DNA of 64,000 bases from Nanobdellota archaeon (GCA_021836125.1 JAKBJF010000001.1:1-64000); one strand, 5' to 3'. Positions 40,458-54,651 are shown, counted from the first letter of the stretch. Translations and numbers: made by a program. The notes: generated from the sequence alone by a model not told the origin.

Positions 40458-40630
40458 TATCCTAACTATGCTAGAGACTTGAAAGTTTATTTATAGATAT
40501 TATGGACGCTAATGACTTGGTGACGCGGTGTCAAATTAGCACATTAAAAATTAATCTCTTTTTAGGGGTAAAACATTTAAATACTCTGCTCATTCTTAGT
40601 ATCTTTAAGTCTGAGCGGAAATTCAAGAAT

Positions 40631-41962
40631 ATGGCGGATTTAAGACAAAAATTGAAGGGATTATACAGTGTCGTTGACGAAAGGTTCTACGTCGGAAGGA
40701 GTGCACGGGAATTTAACGGCGCAAACCCGGCTCTTCTCTTAAGTTTTCTTACTGGAGTTACAAACGGCAGGCAGCTTACTTTTGGAAACTGGGGCATGGG
40801 AAAGACTACGCTGTCGGAAACTTTAGAAGCCGTACTATACAGTACTCCATTGCAGGTCGTTTTGTCAACAGAAGCGCACGGAGATCCGGAAGTCACGAAA
40901 GAGGAGTTCATAGCCTCGCCTGACCTGGCCGATTTAAAGTCTGTGCTATGGAAAAGGTTCGTGCAGAATCCCGTAAAGAAATTCGATGAGTTTAACAGGA
41001 TGCCTTCCCAGAAACAATCCCTCTTCTTCGACGGAATAGACCGGGGAAACTTTGAATATCAGGGGATAACCCTATTCTCAAAGCCTGGGCCGTTTTTCGC
41101 CACGTGCAATTGGCCTGACCGGGGAAATTCAGAGATCCTCCCTCCTACAGAGGACCGATTTGACATCGCCGTTTGCTCGGAGGAACCCGACCTTTTATTA
41201 AGACGTCACATAATGCTAAACAAAGAGAGGAAGATAGACTACAATATACTTAAAGATGAAAGCAATGACTGGAAAGACATGCTAGCGACACTTGACGGTA
41301 ACGAGGATTACGACAAAAAAATGGTGAAGCTATCGGAACAGCGCTCTTCTTTCAGAAACCGGCTCGAAAAGACCCTTGGAGTAGAACTTCTGACTGATGA
41401 GGAGATAAAGAGCATAACTAAGCAGATAAACAGCGTCGAAATATCTCAGGAATCGTGGTCACTTATAGATATGATTCACGCGGAAGCCACATGCCCGTTC
41501 TGCGGCGAAAAGCTTCCAAACAAGGGCTCATGCAACTCTGGCTGTCATTATGCAAAGGCGAACGGCGGTTCGCAAAACGATTACATGTTCGTTAATACTA
41601 CAAGACCACTAACGATAAGATTTGACGATTCTCTTTCTAAGTACTCAAAAGCGCTTTCGTGGTACTCGGGCAGTAATGTGGTGCATCCTTCAGCTATACT
41701 TCTTATGCTGCCGTACTTGCTTTGGCACAGAGCCGGGTTCAGGGACGACTTCGGCTCAAACGACCCTTATACAGGTCCTTTGCAAGTATACCGTGCAAAA
41801 CTCATAGCCGGCGGCCTGCAACAGCGCTTCAATTCTGACAAGGCGCTGTTCATGGAAGCTTACAACAGTTTCATAAGTAATGAAAAGCCGAAGATGGGCT
41901 GGTTCTCGAACAATAGGGACCACCCTTTGTTCAAGCACTACGAGAAGAAGATGCAGGAATGA
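40631..41962 (+). CDS. MoxR-type AAA+ ATPase with inserted zinc ribbon
   Basis: 443 residues. Walker A GNWGMGKTT (52-60), Walker B-like KKFDEFNRM (Asp119, Glu120), sensor 1 FATCN (Asn160) and PTEDRFD match MoxR ATPases, which act with VWA proteins as chaperone-like complexes. A four-Cys zinc ribbon, Cys288-x2-Cys291 ... Cys301-x3-Cys305 with His306, is inserted in the C-terminal part, unusual for MoxR. Start chosen at ATG 40631; the earlier ATG at 40502 adds a poorly coded stretch containing a TATA-like box. First gene of the four-gene operon ending at 45795. Confidence 0.85.
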   Translation: MADLRQKLKGLYSVVDERFYVGRSAREFNGANPALLLSFLTGVTNGRQLTFGNWGMGKTTLSETLEAVLYSTPLQVVLSTEAHGDPEVTKEEFIASPDLADLKSVLWKRFVQNPVKKFDEFNRMPSQKQSLFFDGIDRGNFEYQGITLFSKPGPFFATCNWPDRGNSEILPPTEDRFDIAVCSEEPDLLLRRHIMLNKERKIDYNILKDESNDWKDMLATLDGNEDYDKKMVKLSEQRSSFRNRLEKTLGVELLTDEEIKSITKQINSVEISQESWSLIDMIHAEATCPFCGEKLPNKGSCNSGCHYAKANGGSQNDYMFVNTTRPLTIRFDDSLSKYSKALSWYSGSNVVHPSAILLMLPYLLWHRAGFRDDFGSNDPYTGPLQVYRAKLIAGGLQQRFNSDKALFMEAYNSFISNEKPKMGWFSNNRDHPLFKHYEKKMQE

Positions 41963-41968
41963 GCGCCA

Positions 41969-43036
41969 ATGGAAACTGAAGCGCTGAGACAAAAACTCGC
42001 CGAGGAATCGCAATCGAGACCTGCAGAAAACAGGCTGCTAAACGAATTGACAAAGAACATAACAAACCGATCAAAACCACACACAAAGGGATTGGAAGCT
42101 CTTTTGAAGACCTTCTCAGAAATGCCGATTCACGAAAGCTCGCACGGCGCCGAAGAAAATCCTTTTCTTAAAAAATGCCATATTTATTATTTCGGGTGCA
42201 GGGAAAAACTAGCCAAGATAGAGTACACCTTAGACGACGCCGTTAGCATGTACGAAGAGTTAAATAGCGACGATAACCCGGGTGGCTTCGGAATATTCAC
42301 ATCCGCTGCAATCAACAGTAAATTTTCCGGTAAACCGCTTATATTAAATCCAAAAAACGGTGCCGTGTCGCACTCACTTATGAATTTTGGCCGCTTTGTT
42401 AACGGCGAGTTTTCTAATAGGGGTGAAAAATCAGTTAATAAAAACTATTCAGAAGCAATAGTTAACGGGGACGTGGGGGATTACGCGTTTTTAGGCGCGT
42501 TTAAGTCCAAAATAACCGTAAGGGGACATGCTGGCGATTATCTCGGAGCTGATAACTATCATACAATTATTCACGCAAAGTCGGCGGGGCTAAAAACTGG
42601 CCTCCAGGGGCGGGCCTATACGCGTGAGACCATAAACCTGGAAAGAAAACCAATCTCTGTCGGCAAACCATATGACTCTGTAATTATCAATGAAAGGAGA
42701 ACTAAAAAATGGAAAACCTTTGGTTTTTATATGGACTGGTTTGAAAAAGCGCAACCGCGCACCGGCCTCGCTGAGCGAATCTCTGACTACGCAAACATCG
42801 GCATGATGCTGTCGGGGTCTATTTTTGTAGCAGGAGGGTACCTATTACCACACGAATGGCTGATAAATTATGTTAACAACAGCGGTTTTAATGGACCAAT
42901 TTTATTTCAACTCGGCGCATGGTGGTATGCGCTTAATAATTTAAAACCATTTACTAAAAAAGTATTAGAAAGATACGTAAGAAAGAGACGCACGATATAT
43001 GGAAAAGAATTTCCAGATTACACTAAATATCATTGA
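41969..43036 (+). CDS. GXGXG-like beta-helix membrane protein, copy A
   Basis: 355 residues. Variable N-terminus with GLEALL (41-46), then an alpha/beta region with GFGIFTSAA. Residues about 170-230 show repeated G-D-x-G-D-Y strands (NGDVGDYAF, RGHAGDYLG) like the GXGXG right-handed beta-helix of glutamate synthase or formylmethanofuran dehydrogenase subunit C. Two membrane helices near the C-terminus (about 275-295 and 305-325). It has the same plan as copy B (44725). It lies between the ATPase and the VWA protein. Confidence 0.75.
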   Translation: METEALRQKLAEESQSRPAENRLLNELTKNITNRSKPHTKGLEALLKTFSEMPIHESSHGAEENPFLKKCHIYYFGCREKLAKIEYTLDDAVSMYEELNSDDNPGGFGIFTSAAINSKFSGKPLILNPKNGAVSHSLMNFGRFVNGEFSNRGEKSVNKNYSEAIVNGDVGDYAFLGAFKSKITVRGHAGDYLGADNYHTIIHAKSAGLKTGLQGRAYTRETINLERKPISVGKPYDSVIINERRTKKWKTFGFYMDWFEKAQPRTGLAERISDYANIGMMLSGSIFVAGGYLLPHEWLINYVNNSGFNGPILFQLGAWWYALNNLKPFTKKVLERYVRKRRTIYGKEFPDYTKYH

Positions 43037-44712
43037 ACATGGAAACAAAAGAGAAACAGAGAAAAAGACCGGCCGTGTTAGACTCCTTAAAGTCGCTGAT
43101 AAAGGGCGCAAGAGAAATGAATTTCACGAAAAAGTTCTATAATTTTAACAAAAACGCACGAAAAGCAAAAACATACGCATCCGGATTGGAAGCTTTACTA
43201 TACGAAAGCTGGAAGAAGGTAAACGCAGAATTTGGCTTTGTGCCGTTTCGTCCGGAATTATCGGATGGCATGATGTCTTACATTGACATGAGCACAAAGA
43301 GAGTATACATAGGCAGCGAATTACTAAAAAAAACCAGTAAAGGCGGAACTCCTGACGAAAGGGTGGTTTATGCTGCTTGTATGCATGAGACGGGTCACTA
43401 TATGTACCATCCTTACGATTTAACTACGATACTGACTGAACTTAACGCTCTTAAATTCTACGATGACGGCCGGCTGGGTGGTCCAAAGGCTTCCATCATG
43501 CGCCTGATATATGATGACATAGTGAACGAAACTAGTATAATAATAAACCACAAAGATCACAACCTTGACAGAATGTACCGCGCTATGGGCTCGCTAGATT
43601 CCAGCTCTTCAGCAAAAAAGAGCAAAGAGGACGCGGTTTCTCTTATGCAGGCATATTACAGCGAAATAAGCGGCTTGGACTTCGGCGTAAAACGAAAGGA
43701 CCTTAGTGTTGACATGCAAGACCGTTTGGATAAGCTTAAAAAGATAGACTTCTTAAACAGGGCTCGAAACACGTACAATATACGCGAATTTGCGCGCATA
43801 ATCGCCGATATTTCACTTAATACGGATTGTAGGGGAAAACAGATAAACAGTTTTTCGGAACAAGAGGTCCAAAAAGCTATGCAGGATCTCGCACAACAGT
43901 GCAGCCCGGAAGAATATCAAAAAATAAGAAAGTTTATGGAAGACGCTGGATGCAAGGACAAGTTGACAGATGGTGAAAACGCAGACCTTGTCGAATATTA
44001 TAAAGGGCTTGCATCCAAGTACGCCATAAGAATACTTGGAAAGCCGATGTCGAGTGCGGAATCGGACTGCCCTTCTGAATTAAAGGAATGGGAAATAAGC
44101 AGCCCCGTAAGCAGAATCAACCCGTACAGGAGCTTTGGCAAAATAATCCCGGGCATAACAAAGCAATGGGTCAAGGGCACATACGACACTTACAACAGCA
44201 TAATTTCGATACCTAATTCCATTATAGTAATAGACTCTTCTGGCAGCATGCAAAATCCGCGCAGTATGAAATCCAACGCTGTAGTTGGTGCATTTTCGAT
44301 TGCAAGGGCGTATATTTTAAATGGCGCAAAGGTGGATGTGATAAATTTCAGCGATAATGCGGGCGTAACGCCATATAAGAGTGAATTGGACGCTTATAGG
44401 TCTCTGATAGTGTATAACGCCGGCGGAACCAAGCCGCCAATAAAGGCGCTCGAGGAATTACTGTCAAATCAAAGCAAAGACATAACGATAATAACCGATG
44501 GATTCGGAGGTGCATCTTTTCAGGATATAGATGCCTTCATGCGCAAACTGGATTCTATTGCAGAACACAGAAGGGTCTCTTTTGTCTATATCGCTGATGG
44601 GCCTTCCGCTACTTTTGTGGGACATGATAAAATAAAATTCCATCACGTAAGCAAAATCGAAGACATAGCCGGTATAGTGCTTGGTGATCTTAATTGGGCG
44701 CCTTCAAAATAG
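43033..44712 (+). CDS. Metallopeptidase-VWA protein (DUF2201-like)
   Basis: 559 residues. N-terminal: GLEALL at 51-56. HETGH (118-122, zinc site) opens a metallopeptidase-like domain. At about 398-545 there is a VWA domain with intact MIDAS: DSSGS (401-405), a Thr in GGTKP and ITDGFG. This pairing of putative metallopeptidase and VWA, beside a MoxR ATPase, is the DUF2201-type arrangement. It overlaps the preceding gene by 4 bases, and the second beta-helix gene begins 12 bases after its stop. No signal peptide. Confidence 0.82.
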   Translation: MNMETKEKQRKRPAVLDSLKSLIKGAREMNFTKKFYNFNKNARKAKTYASGLEALLYESWKKVNAEFGFVPFRPELSDGMMSYIDMSTKRVYIGSELLKKTSKGGTPDERVVYAACMHETGHYMYHPYDLTTILTELNALKFYDDGRLGGPKASIMRLIYDDIVNETSIIINHKDHNLDRMYRAMGSLDSSSSAKKSKEDAVSLMQAYYSEISGLDFGVKRKDLSVDMQDRLDKLKKIDFLNRARNTYNIREFARIIADISLNTDCRGKQINSFSEQEVQKAMQDLAQQCSPEEYQKIRKFMEDAGCKDKLTDGENADLVEYYKGLASKYAIRILGKPMSSAESDCPSELKEWEISSPVSRINPYRSFGKIIPGITKQWVKGTYDTYNSIISIPNSIIVIDSSGSMQNPRSMKSNAVVGAFSIARAYILNGAKVDVINFSDNAGVTPYKSELDAYRSLIVYNAGGTKPPIKALEELLSNQSKDITIITDGFGGASFQDIDAFMRKLDSIAEHRRVSFVYIADGPSATFVGHDKIKFHHVSKIEDIAGIVLGDLNWAPSK

Positions 44713-44724
44713 TCCGCGTAAGTT

Positions 44725-45795
44725 ATGGAAACTGAGCTGTTGAGAAAAGAATTGAGCAACAGAAGTTGTGAAAACCAGTCATATAAAACGGGATACGCCG
44801 CCCTCATTTCGTCTAATTACAAGAAGGAAAGCCCCGGCCTGGAGTCGCTGTTAAAAACGTTCAACGACCTTCCTGATTTCGACAATTCCGGCAATCAACG
44901 TGAATACACTGCAATCTGCATTGACAAATTAAAGCAAGTGAAATACGAGGCACGCGACGCGATAGAGATGTGCGAAAACTTCGTGCCTTACAACAACAAG
45001 AACGGTTTTGGGATTTTCGCTTCTGCGGCTTTATTTTATTCCATAGGGGACGATGCTGAGACTACTATCCGACTAAAGCGCGCAATACCATATTTTCTTT
45101 CCGGCGAATTATTTGTGGATGAGATCCTAAAAAGACCGTACAGAAAGCATAAAATAACGGTCGACGGAAACATCGGAGACTATTCTCTTTCGTACGCAAA
45201 CGGCCTGGAGGCCGCAATCACGGGATACGCCGGCAACCACGTATGCTATGAGATGAGAAACGGGTGCATAAAAATAGGAAAGGATGCTGGGAACTACTTA
45301 GGTGAAAATATGATAGACGGGGAAATAGATGTAGAGGGCAAAGCAGGGATTGAAATCTATAGAAATACGGAAACTATTCGCAAAAATAATGGCTTAAAGG
45401 GAATACCCGTGGTACACTGTAAAAAGGGTTTTATCTCTGCCGGTTCTGATTCGGCACCTTTTCTGTTTATAAAACGTACCAGCATTCACAATACTCTCTT
45501 TAATGTTGCGCATGCATATCAGCACTTTAGAGATTATGGTCCCGGTAACAAATATCTTAATTTTGTCGGCTATTCTTTACTGGCTGCTGACGCCATCGCA
45601 TTAGCTTCCTACTTTCTTGGGATTGACAATGGCAGTATTGCAACTATGCGTGATTTGATATTAAATACATCTGTGTTCCAGCTATTCTTCTGTTATTGGC
45701 CGGTTGCGCGTCAACTAAATAAGTTTTTCGGCCGGATAGTAAATGAACGCAAGAAAGACCATGATGCAAAGTTATCGCGCGTATTGGATTACTGA
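44725..45795 (+). CDS. GXGXG-like beta-helix membrane protein, copy B
   Basis: 356 residues. Same plan as copy A: METE-L-[LA]R start, GLESLL (38-43), GFGIF-SAA, then G-D-x-G-D/N strands (GNIGDYSL, GYAGNHVC, KDAGNYLG) and about two C-terminal membrane helices. It is the last gene of the operon. The two copies differ a lot in sequence, so the duplication is old. Confidence 0.75.
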   Translation: METELLRKELSNRSCENQSYKTGYAALISSNYKKESPGLESLLKTFNDLPDFDNSGNQREYTAICIDKLKQVKYEARDAIEMCENFVPYNNKNGFGIFASAALFYSIGDDAETTIRLKRAIPYFLSGELFVDEILKRPYRKHKITVDGNIGDYSLSYANGLEAAITGYAGNHVCYEMRNGCIKIGKDAGNYLGENMIDGEIDVEGKAGIEIYRNTETIRKNNGLKGIPVVHCKKGFISAGSDSAPFLFIKRTSIHNTLFNVAHAYQHFRDYGPGNKYLNFVGYSLLAADAIALASYFLGIDNGSIATMRDLILNTSVFQLFFCYWPVARQLNKFFGRIVNERKKDHDAKLSRVLDY

Positions 45796-45839: not shown

Positions 45840-46235
45840 TTAGAGCTCTCTGCTCTTTCTTTTCAGCCTCTCCATTAAGTCACGTAAAGAAGACCGATAC
45901 AAAAACGCGAATATCTCTTTGTACATCGCATCTGCTATTGGGTCATATGAGTACTGGTTGTATCGAATGCGTTCTTTATAGGCAGAACCAGCCATCGGGC
46001 GCCACGTAAAAACCACATAAACTTCTGAATTTGATTCCGGCTCCCTATCATTGCTATTCAATAACGCTTCCTTTACCTCTATCAACCTGCGCGTCTTTAT
46101 TGCGGCGTTTGGATCTTCCGGGTGTAGATCCGGATGGCATTCTTTCAACTTTCTTTTGAATGCAATTTCTATATCTTCTTCGGATGCATCTTCTTGTAAC
46201 CCTAGTATCTCATACAATGCTTTTCGATTAGCCAT
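45840..46235 (-). CDS. J-domain (DnaJ-like) protein
   Basis: 131 residues. N-terminal J domain: helices with YEILGL, then KECHPDLHP (HPD loop that stimulates Hsp70 ATPase). C-terminal half basic and helical. Type III J-protein by layout (no Cys repeat or Gly/Phe region). It converges with the beta-helix gene. Confidence 0.85.
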   Translation of the reverse strand: MANRKALYEILGLQEDASEEDIEIAFKRKLKECHPDLHPEDPNAAIKTRRLIEVKEALLNSNDREPESNSEVYVVFTWRPMAGSAYKERIRYNQYSYDPIADAMYKEIFAFLYRSSLRDLMERLKRKSREL

Positions 46236-51067: not shown

Positions 51068-52156
51068 TCATTTAAGTCCAAGTATGGAAGTAGTAAGAAT
51101 GAAATGGTTGCCTATGCCGCCATCGTATGTACTACCGACAGTGCATGCATCATTATCTGTGGAACCAGAAGAAGCTGAAAGCCAGCTTGAATTCAGAGCG
51201 GATACGCTAGGTGACCAACTTACATTTGTGAGATAACCCTGTGCTGCTCCTACACATAGATAATTACCATAAGTCGAATTCAATGTTGCCGTATCGTATA
51301 TTGCTGATGGCTGAGGCGAGGCGATTCCGCCGTTGCCGGCATATACGCTGCTATTGAAAGCAAACGGGCAGGAAGGCATGTTAAAGACATATACGGCTGA
51401 GCCTATGTAAGCCGTTTTTCCTGTAGTTACATTAAAATCATACGTACCTGGCGCCTGCGCATTACAAGTGGCTATGTAAGTCGACAGTGAGGACGGGCCT
51501 ACAAGGCCGCCTCCCAAGCTAGTATTAAACAAATCTTGCGTACATCCTAAAGGCATACGCGCAGTAGTTATATTCCCGCCGAAGCCGCTCGCGCTTACCA
51601 AAGCGACAAACGACCGTTTGCTAAGAGTGTATGATACTTTACTGAAGGTTGAATTAGTCACATTGCTAAAAAGCTCAAAGCTATTACACGGCAAAGGAGG
51701 TATGTTTCCTGGTGAAATCTCTACACGAAGAGAGCCGCTGGAATTGTATGTAAGTCCATTGCTCTGATAAGTTATAGTCCCTAGTGCGTTTACTTCTGGC
51801 CCAGTCAACGATAATCCTTGAATAAAGCACTGCGAATTCTGGGATGTTGTGAGATTGTTTGATAAGCATGTGAAATTTGAATACTGTTTATTATTGATTA
51901 CTACCGAGACGTTCTTTATACTTATATCGTTTCCTGCTTCGTCGGATATATATAACGACATTGCAGTTGAGTTTGCCTGCCCGTTTGTCACTGGCACTGT
52001 TGCGAATCCAGTTGCTGAGAATGGTGTAACTGATACTGACGTCGGGTTAAATACGCCGAACGAGTACAAGACTGCTGCGATTATTACTATTATGAGTATC
52101 GCCCAACCATAGGTCATCATGTACTCCAATGCTGATTGGCTTTTTTTAGCGTCCAT
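51068..52156 (-). CDS. Class III signal-peptide secreted (pilin-like) protein
   Basis: 362 residues. KS-Q7SALE11Y at the start, with Q at the predicted cleavage and Glu at +5, then a 20-residue helix. Exported pilin-like protein, probably on the surface. The ectodomain is Ser/Thr/Asn-rich with paired Cys. Start moved to ATG 52156: TATA-like box is about 30 bases upstream, and the longer ATG at 52198 adds a region unlike a signal peptide. Shares a 35-base identical stretch with 58778-61816. Confidence 0.85.
   Translation of the reverse strand: MDAKKSQSALEYMMTYGWAILIIVIIAAVLYSFGVFNPTSVSVTPFSATGFATVPVTNGQANSTAMSLYISDEAGNDISIKNVSVVINNKQYSNFTCLSNNLTTSQNSQCFIQGLSLTGPEVNALGTITYQSNGLTYNSSGSLRVEISPGNIPPLPCNSFELFSNVTNSTFSKVSYTLSKRSFVALVSASGFGGNITTARMPLGCTQDLFNTSLGGGLVGPSSLSTYIATCNAQAPGTYDFNVTTGKTAYIGSAVYVFNMPSCPFAFNSSVYAGNGGIASPQPSAIYDTATLNSTYGNYLCVGAAQGYLTNVSWSPSVSALNSSWLSASSGSTDNDACTVGSTYDGGIGNHFILTTSILGLK
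52093..52127 (-). repeat. 35-base identity with class III gene at 61746-61780, copy 1
   Basis: The bases encoding the EYMMTYGWAIL region are identical over 35 positions to those in the 1012-residue gene. Third codon positions are included, so this is more than protein conservation and suggests recent gene conversion. Confidence 0.85.
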
Positions 52157-52241: not shown

Positions 52242-52832
52242 ATGAAACTTTGGGAAAAGGCGCTTATAAAAATCTCCTATGAATGGCCAAGCATACGAAA
52301 TAAACTGATAAAATTCTTACTATTTGCGTCTGTACTCGGAATTTTTGATTCTACACACCCTACAAAATACATAAACTTCAATTTAGCCGCAAGGTTTCTT
52401 TCTTCGACATTGCCGAAATGGCTAAATTCTTACGTCCCATTATTCACGTCAAACACCTTATACCAGACAATACTCATATCAATCAGTTTTGGACTCACGT
52501 TCCTTGCTTTATATGACTCCAGATTCAGTTGGGCGAGAAGGTCCCTAGCGGCGATGATGCTGATACCCGGGGCGGTAGTGATGGATTATGTTTCTGCCGC
52601 TATAACCGCAGGGAGACTGTTTATCCTGCCGCTCCCTAAGATAGATTATACATGGAGGCTGGGAGTCTATCAAAATACGGCTTTCTCAGGAATGGTTACT
52701 GTGATAAACGCTCCTTCTAAGATCTTGCCTGGCGCTATAATGGGATACGACATAGCTATTTACTTTGCGGTGGCTTTTATAGCGGCAAACATGGCTATTA
52801 TGTTGTACAAAATAAAGAATACTTGTAAGTAG
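52242..52832 (+). CDS. Unknown polytopic membrane protein
   Basis: 196 residues, about four membrane helices (about 25-40, 72-92, 102-125, 170-190) and an amphipathic N-terminus. No family recognised. TATA-like box 28 bases before the ATG. Divergent from the class III gene at 51068. Confidence 0.75.
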   Translation: MKLWEKALIKISYEWPSIRNKLIKFLLFASVLGIFDSTHPTKYINFNLAARFLSSTLPKWLNSYVPLFTSNTLYQTILISISFGLTFLALYDSRFSWARRSLAAMMLIPGAVVMDYVSAAITAGRLFILPLPKIDYTWRLGVYQNTAFSGMVTVINAPSKILPGAIMGYDIAIYFAVAFIAANMAIMLYKIKNTCK

Positions 52833-53586: not shown

Positions 53587-54651
53587 TTAAGTCGTTCTTT
53601 GACTCGGTATTTTTCGCTGTCTTTGGAAGTTTTCCCAGTAACTTTCCATGCTCTTATCGTAGTTTACGATGTTTTTTAGATAACTCTGTTTTTCCTTGTA
53701 TAAGTGTCGCGAAGAAAAGAGTCCAACTCCTATTATTGGCAATAAAAACAGTTCTGCGCCGGTCATGTTGACGCCACCAAATTGGGTCGAAGAATTCAGC
53801 ATTGACAAGAAAAGATAAAAGAGATTGTAGTTTATGTTCGGCCCTCCGAACCAGGCCTCGTTTGCCAGGGGCAGTAAGCCTACTTCTTCAAGTGCCCCTA
53901 TCGCAGCGAAGCCCCCTATGATAGTTCCTATTGCTTCGGAAACATAACTCATGCTTTTAGACAAGCTGGAAAGGAGGGGTCTAAATATGCTTTTCTTAGA
54001 GTCTAGGCGTTTATTTGCTATTACGGTGCTGCCATCTTCACTTCCATAGCCAAAGTGGGGACCAGTAACACCGTACACAACGAATTTTTTGCGCGGGGGC
54101 GTTGCTGTAGCAAGATAGTCGAGCTCGTCTACATTCTTAAGTCTTAGTGATTTCGCTAATTTTGAATTATTAAAAAAGCAACTGATAGCCAACCCCCCTA
54201 TCTGCGATGAGGAAATTGGCATATACAAGCTAAATTTTTTGTCGTTATCATAAACCCTATCGATGGCGATCTTTGTGCTGTTAAGTCTGCTTAGCACGCC
54301 TTCTATATCAGTTACTATATTTTCTGCGAATTTACTGATACTGCGCGCATCCGCATGGGAATAAAATTCCTTGTCAATATATGAGTCTAAGTACTGGTAA
54401 AATACGCTGGACGCCTTACTTGACCCGAACTTTACATTTGTATTTTCCTCAAAATAGGCCGCTGTCGCCAGTATAGCACTTGTTATGTCCTCCTTTGCTG
54501 CACGGTAAAACTCTTGATATGACAGCCTGTCTGGACTAAGGTAATTATACGCTGTTTTAAAGGGCAAAGCGACTTTCTTCTCAAACTTAAGAAGCTCGTC
54601 TAATGCAACGTTCTTAATATCTTTGTTAAACATACTCCAATTAGAATGCAA
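53587..54651 (-). CDS. Unknown protein with C-terminal membrane helices
   Basis: 354 residues. ALDELL at 16-21 (recurrent motif). A soluble region of about 230 residues, then two membrane segments at about 240-260 and 298-318, with a charged end. The size, motif and two C-terminal helices resemble the beta-helix proteins of the MoxR operon, but the middle lacks the G-D strands. It converges with the transglutaminase-like gene. Confidence 0.7.
   Translation of the reverse strand: MHSNWSMFNKDIKNVALDELLKFEKKVALPFKTAYNYLSPDRLSYQEFYRAAKEDITSAILATAAYFEENTNVKFGSSKASSVFYQYLDSYIDKEFYSHADARSISKFAENIVTDIEGVLSRLNSTKIAIDRVYDNDKKFSLYMPISSSQIGGLAISCFFNNSKLAKSLRLKNVDELDYLATATPPRKKFVVYGVTGPHFGYGSEDGSTVIANKRLDSKKSIFRPLLSSLSKSMSYVSEAIGTIIGGFAAIGALEEVGLLPLANEAWFGGPNINYNLFYLFLSMLNSSTQFGGVNMTGAELFLLPIIGVGLFSSRHLYKEKQSYLKNIVNYDKSMESYWENFQRQRKIPSQRTT

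Follow-up and report, generated by a model that had tools for sequence, protein, structure and literature searches.

A probable MoxR-VWA engine with interchangeable, N-terminally tagged recognition modules in DPANN archaea

We analysed a stretch of 64,000 nucleotides from a Nanobdellota archaeon (GCA_021836125.1 JAKBJF010000001.1:1-64000, hereafter the window), in which an operon at positions 40631-45795 encodes, in this order and all on the plus strand, a MoxR-type AAA+ ATPase, a first beta-helix (BH) protein, a protein with a HETGH metallopeptidase-like domain and a von Willebrand factor A (VWA) domain, and a second beta-helix protein (Table 1). The two beta-helix proteins are called partners 1 and 2 below, and the ATPase and VWA protein together the engine. 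The open reading frame (ORF) calls, made mechanically throughout, agree with the original prediction of four same-strand genes with small gaps or overlaps: 6 nt lie between the genes of MoxR and partner 1 and 12 nt between those of the VWA protein and partner 2, and the genes of partner 1 and the VWA protein overlap by at most 4 nt. An upstream ATG at 40502 is a possible alternative start of MoxR. Because the matches of the operon proteins in Pfam and NCBIfam (AAA_5, VWA_2 and GXGXG/FwdC) are all weak, genome annotation would miss the four-gene set. Identity with a known defence system was rejected, as PADLOC returned no match for the four genes, and no effector domain was found in them with Pfam, NCBIfam or PADLOC.

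Table 1. Features of the window (positions counted from its first nucleotide; TM, transmembrane)
Feature	Position	Strand	Remarks
MoxR-type AAA+ ATPase, 443 aa from ATG 40631	40631..41962	+	Walker A GNWGMGKT, Walker B FDEFNR, CPFC...CNSGC insert
Partner protein 1 (beta-helix 1)	41969..43036	+	METEALRQKL tag, helical domain from GLEALL (residues 41-46), GXGXG-type beta-helix
HETGH metallopeptidase-like and VWA protein	43033..44712	+	Intact MIDAS; start TTG 43033 or ATG 43039
Partner protein 2 (beta-helix 2)	44725..45795	+	METELLRKEL tag, GLESLL helix (residues 38-43), GXGXG beta-helix
Possible orphan paralogue of the beta-helix family with TM-like segments	53587..54651	-	Weak; BH2 profile score 17.2, E 3.6e-4

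The operon recurs in other genomes, also with more beta-helix copies. Relatives were collected with a profile of three VWA proteins (a single-protein query of the genome contigs found nothing, the alignment query did), which yielded 60 named loci and hits in 45 of the 378 genomes of the class, most of the genomes being draft metagenome assemblies. Candidatus Acidifodinimicrobium mancum (Parvarchaeota, DPANN), a member of the same family, has MoxR, three beta-helix genes, VWA and four beta-helix genes (L007/L014, with MoxR starting the L007 operon), and the VWA protein of the window groups with that of A. mancum with a support of 98 in a tree of 47 VWA proteins. Other arrangements are single-copy MoxR-BH-VWA triads in Deltaproteobacteria/Myxococcota and Latescibacterota, MoxR-VWA-BH-BH in Archaeoglobi, and MoxR-BH-BH-VWA-BH in Aenigmatarchaeota; a beta-helix gene beside the VWA gene is also found in many DPANN. 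Expanded loci include L031 (MoxR-BH-BH-VWA-BH) and L113 (4BH-MoxR-VWA-x-2BH), and the genome of the window itself has a second locus, BH-MoxR-VWA, on contig C12. In Asgard relatives MoxR-VWA is present and no beta-helix partner was detected. The MoxR, VWA and two beta-helix genes are thereby supported as one conserved functional unit. Duplication of the partners, of which the original prediction knew no other case, is usual in several lineages of DPANN. In 26 genomes of the genus the VWA search gave no hit, which at first suggested that the other members lack the system; this was corrected, since G003 holds a MoxR gene beside a beta-helix gene, cut by the contig end.

In searches with single sequences, partner 2 matched Pfam GXGXG at E 1e-3 and NCBIfam FwdC at E 9e-8, the Pfam scores remaining below the cut-off. 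To exclude circularity, an independent profile was made with sequences of bacteria and Archaeoglobi alone (no DPANN); it recovers partner 2 at E 3.3e-17 and partner 1 at E 1.6e-7, and for the copies of A. mancum it gives E-values from 2e-19 to 1e-8. When a 22-row profile of the family was compared with solved structures, it matched FwdC chains (up to 7e-27) and the GXGXG domain of glutamate synthase (GltS; 2e-9). Judged by these profiles, the fold of the partner family is the GXGXG beta-helix of FwdC and GltS, as predicted for two distantly related proteins; the relation between the two window partners extends over the full sequence, and no sign of unrelated folds was found. The beta-helix lies at about residues 160-215 in partner 1, where it is short, and at about 140-225 in partner 2, and both proteins have a hydrophobic C-terminal part. 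The AlphaFold model of partner 1 (pLDDT 60 overall) has a helical domain at residues 40-118 (pLDDT about 80-95) and then short strands, both modelled well, and a poor C-terminal third. With this moderate model Foldseek ranked FwdC, FhcC and GltS first among the PDB folds, but the match was not significant. The description of the partners as membrane proteins, and hence of a membrane-located machine, turned out to be weak: the best 19-residue hydropathy values of the window partners are 1.41 and 1.60, and none of 72 partner proteins passes the hydropathy threshold for TM segments. At L143 4914-7297 beta-helix proteins consist of near-perfect repeats (GNVGxxCGxxSTxGTYxI) of varying number, which look as if they were quickly gained and lost.

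In four other DPANN genomes (L104; L105 and L106; L107; L108) the same slots are occupied by another kind of protein: the order is MoxR-X-VWA-X, where X is not a beta-helix gene but a target of a diversity-generating retroelement (DGR). The X genes occur in pairs or triplets with near-repeats at their 3' ends and adjoin a reverse transcriptase gene (PF00078). An unbiased, ungapped comparison of the template repeat (TR) of L107 with three variable repeats (VRs) placed 10 of 11, 12 of 13 and 14 of 15 mismatches at TR adenines; longer TR/VR cores in all DGR loci agree with A-specific substitution, with a script that favours A-mismatches by design. The targets of L105 and L106 match AvpA (PDB 5ioo), an archaeal DGR variable protein of the lectin fold, at E 1.5e-13, and the other DGR targets had no match to solved structures. 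In the tree of VWA proteins the engines of the lectin/DGR type do not form one clade (three changes; approximately unbiased test, p-AU 7e-6, for a group that was named after the loci were seen). As these engines stand in separate places of the tree, the occupants of this slot have been exchanged for modules with another fold. Bodies other than the beta-helix and AvpA types (propeller, helical) were assigned by eye, for instance the propeller-like repeats of L150. Two further arrangements were seen: small glycine-rich, zipper-like membrane proteins replace the beta-helix or lectin partners after MoxR-VWA at L020 1976-3491 and L109 4882-6169, and at L173 2154-4163 (G197:C16) a DGR-like target with a J-domain-like N-terminus has as neighbours a small VWA protein and a reverse transcriptase that is split.

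The original prediction had drawn attention to a near-identical G-L-E-[AS]-L-L stretch in all three non-ATPase proteins and regarded it as a tag. A motif scan confirmed its presence (Table 1 for the partners; residues 51-56 of the VWA protein) but not its reading as a tag. In the beta-helix family GLEALL is the conserved first helix of a folded N-terminal domain, according to the AlphaFold model, and the motif recurs in orphan beta-helix relatives of the genus (SGLEALLFEFS, MKGLEALLSVFSDLS and NNGLESLLADFS) and at the distant locus L144 (HGLEALLNAGDAF). In the VWA protein it opens a conserved domain of that protein's own, where relatives read NLETAL, SLSFAL or DLQELL; one universal tag was rejected for the VWA protein, in which GLEALL fits the ordinary range of that helix, and the identity with the beta-helix proteins is probably parallel. 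The part of the window partners that is more like a tag is METExLRxxL, upstream of GLE[AS]LL.

Partners of one locus were found to have a common N-terminal stretch that differs between loci, for instance LHRxxEDIVxQYEGLxSAD (L114), LLGDLExPxxEKxLKV (L113), YLGxGKPDEKK (L118) and MPID[DKQ]xL (L145); L144 and L145 have 9 and 12 tag-sharing partners, respectively. Tags were scored with simple local alignments against a background of 2351 cross-locus pairs. In 41 within-locus pairs (5 of 15 in L118, 31 of 66 in L145 and 5 of 6 in L150) the first 30 residues are alike and the rest of the protein is at background, and in L118 the tag is common to a lectin-type protein and beta-helix proteins. Tags are also shared across unlinked loci of one genome: among 26 unlinked beta-helix proteins, 21 match best the tag of the engine locus of their own genome, a number reached in none of 20000 label shuffles. 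In G340 the unlinked beta-helix proteins, five of five, have the genome's own tag, with bodies that are nearer to those of other genomes (the rest of the protein served as control), and an unlinked DGR target (L169) carries the same tag as the engine locus. At the level of sequence comparison, this is the cleanest evidence for a tag selected as such. The rule that a partner encoded away from the engine has the tag of the engine in its own genome is thus supported by the sequences of other genomes, where the engine locus does look like the suggested hub for other tagged proteins; in the genome of the window the one further strong paralogue has a different N-terminus. Tags and motif could instead be functionless leftovers of recent tandem duplication, with GLEALL a product of chance. 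The whole-length similarity of paralogues in several loci and the ordinary range of the VWA helix agree with this, but the 41 pairs alike in the tag and at background in the rest, and the proteins of G340 with a common tag and not a common body, largely refute it, and we consider it very improbable.

As for the engine, the Walker A and B motifs identify the window ATPase as a MoxR AAA+ protein, with AAA_5 below its cut-off (18.8 of 22 bits) and 35% identity, in the aligned part, to MoxR of L006/L008. The zinc ribbon said to be inserted in it is present as a zinc-ribbon-like CxxC insert but is not found in near relatives; among 33 MoxR proteins scanned, only that of the window and two of Archaeoglobi have a CxxC near the insert region. 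The prediction of a HETGH metallopeptidase-VWA protein with intact MIDAS was borne out: HETGH lies at residues 118-122, and the MIDAS residues (D401-S-S-G-S, T466 and D489) are invariant as D401xSxS, T466 and D489 in an 18-row alignment. The AlphaFold model (pLDDT 80) has VWA domains as PDB neighbours, including the MIDAS domain of MDN1 (midasin) and NorD, and no Pfam match to DUF2201 domains was found in the protein up to E 1. Nearly all DPANN engines retain HExxH, whereas the relatives in bacteria and Archaeoglobi have lost its Glu; proteolysis is therefore not needed by the family, and it may be an added output in DPANN. It is conceivable that the HExxH domain acts as a proteolytic switch: whenever MoxR is active, it would cut the tagged partners at the tag or close to it and so free the bodies as effectors. 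The motif is indeed kept in nearly all engines of DPANN, where the tagged arrays occur, and missing from those of bacteria and Archaeoglobi, which have a single partner or two. This correlation is, however, confounded by phylogeny, E136, a candidate for the third zinc ligand, is not uniform, and L150 and L145 have partner arrays and an engine without HExxH, so that we judge the switch improbable. Of the remodelling or proteolytic membrane machine originally envisaged, the conserved unit stands, but proteolysis is doubtful, as is the location in the membrane.

MoxR-VWA pairs remodel bound proteins using ATP. Our preferred reading, which we hold to be probable by a modest degree, is that of a MoxR-VWA engine with interchangeable, N-terminally tagged recognition modules, of which the window operon is one form. 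MoxR, presumably a hexamer as in its AAA+ family, and the VWA protein would form an ATP-driven remodelling core, with the MIDAS and the peptidase-like N-domain contacting the partner. The locus-specific tag of about 20-35 residues would dock the partner to the core, and the variable body would bind a ligand: a beta-helix in the window and A. mancum, a DGR-hypermutated AvpA-like C-type lectin in other DPANN, and propeller-like or helical bodies elsewhere. Ligand on the body might then switch the core, which would remodel (and in HExxH forms cut) the docked protein or another target. More tentatively, we think it possible that DPANN possess in this way a modular, partly hypermutating intracellular recognition system, in which one MoxR-VWA engine reads many receptors, encoded nearby or unlinked, via the N-terminal tag.

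The MoxR-VWA pair might also be a chaperone of assembly or maturation, which folds, assembles or metallates tagged clients with the tag as client handle, the bodies being structural or attachment proteins directed towards the host. Characterised pairs work so (NorQD, PMC9976466 and PMC13036017; RavA-ViaA, PMC3893208; and CbbQO), and DPANN are episymbionts, for which AvpA-like proteins were proposed to serve symbiosis (PMC5006420). No metal enzyme or fixed client adjoins the operons, however, one tag occurs on unlike folds, and the partners have no clear TM segment, which disfavours surface display; we regard such a chaperone as rather unlikely.

Several points weigh against the recognition-module reading. 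In G126/G086, G223 and G284 the bodies of the unlinked partners are also nearest to their own genome, and duplication may explain the tags there. Since the window partners are related to each other from end to end, their common tag alone proves nothing. No RVT_1 turned up among the 28 genomes of the genus, so that the modules encoded in the window are not targets of a DGR. The bacterial forms show a single partner and nothing that points to diversification. Genomes of the same genus contain orphan beta-helix genes and no VWA homologue was found in them; the beta-helix body may work without this engine too, or the engine may have been lost to assembly gaps. Finally, physical docking through the tag, sensing of a ligand, the output and a role in defence or symbiosis are inferred from sequence.

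The window lies on contig C22 (157 kb), in a genome of 800 kb that is 66% complete. Contamination was rejected: the best relatives of the neighbouring genes lie inside the genus, at 44-64% identity, and the contig therefore belongs to the lineage. An origin from a virus or plasmid was also rejected: IMG/VR, phages and plasmids yielded no relative of the VWA protein, the PHROG matches were only weak, and the composition shows no jump. The flanks are not syntenic in sister genomes, so that a clean insertion site could not be shown. A beta-helix search of the genome gave three places, with one further strong paralogue whose N-terminus differs from the operon tags; the weak paralogue of Table 1 was found with the independent profile at only E 0.03. 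Near it lies a gene for a multi-TM protein (52242-52829, plus strand), 36% identical (E 1e-38) to one at L111 12855-13499, downstream of the MoxR-VWA-beta-helix locus of C12; a membrane partner is one possible role for such a protein. Directly after the operon, on the opposite strand, a DnaJ-domain protein is encoded (45840-46235, minus strand; Pfam E 2.7e-12). Apart from a repeated signal-peptide stretch, G155, listed as the same species, has almost no DNA that can be aligned with two 20 kb stretches of C22. This stretch, class III signal peptide DNA at 52007-52145 (QSALEYMMTYGWAILII), occurs in at least 5 places of G155 with 77-86% DNA identity and is conserved beyond anything else tested against G155, which raises the question whether it is a recombining N-terminal cassette. 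A neighbourhood of GNAT and IDFHTHSG amidohydrolase genes (L213, L215 and L221 versus L007 and L229) contains MoxR and beta-helix genes in A. mancum and G003 and beta-helix genes only in G002, G025 and G008, where the engine has apparently been lost and the partners kept.

If the proposed system is real, cells with a genome of about 1 Mb would have a repertoire of receptors that all use one signal-transducing motor, into which any body can be plugged. The testable rule that the tag follows the engine means that the candidate receptors of a genome can be listed from sequence alone, and tagged beta-helix partners may explain stray annotations as formylmethanofuran dehydrogenase subunit C. The loci L104-L108 add a link of MoxR-VWA to DGR targets in four genomes, next to a beta-helix form of these slots that does not mutate. 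The literature search gave no description of the system, no paper on MoxR with vWA and GXGXG, or on MoxR with formylmethanofuran dehydrogenase subunit C, and nothing on point for MoxR and DPANN, though Paul et al. 2017 may have mentioned MoxR or vWA earlier in their work on DPANN DGRs.

Among known systems, NorQD, CbbQO and RavA-ViaA are likewise remodelling pairs of MoxR and a VWA protein with MIDAS, but they have a dedicated metabolic client, whereas the partners described here are interchangeable and tagged. FwdC and GltS have the beta-helix repeat region in common with the partners, which in addition have an N-terminal helical domain and a tag; no context of methanofuran dehydrogenase or glutamate synthase was seen. 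AvpA is homologous to the L105/L106 targets, and under the terms searched no link to MoxR-VWA was found in the paper on it (PMC5006420). The four MoxR-vWA ternary conflict systems (VMAP, iSTAND, FtsH and beta-propeller types; Kaur et al. 2020, PMC7159879) also combine MoxR, a MIDAS vWA protein and a conserved third component, with DGR diversification and propellers around them. Here a tagged body (beta-helix, lectin or another) appears to stand in the place of VMAP, iSTAND or FtsH, no effector domains were seen, an N-terminal HExxH domain is part of the vWA protein, and the system occurs in DPANN and, with one or two copies of the partner, in Archaeoglobi, Latescibacterota and Delta/Myxococcota. 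For third components of the Kaur type, double FtsH among them, Pfam, NCBIfam and PADLOC gave no match in the window, in a comparison without the VMAP and iSTAND profiles themselves. In the DGR-diversified MoxR ternary systems of multicellular bacteria (Dore et al. 2024, PMC10907252) MoxR similarly adjoins DGR targets with a C-type-lectin variable domain, whereas the DPANN targets are tagged proteins in their own right, which flank the VWA protein on both sides and can be swapped with a beta-helix. What is new here are the DGR targets in the slots flanking VWA in DPANN and the locus-specific N-terminal tags on unrelated partners.

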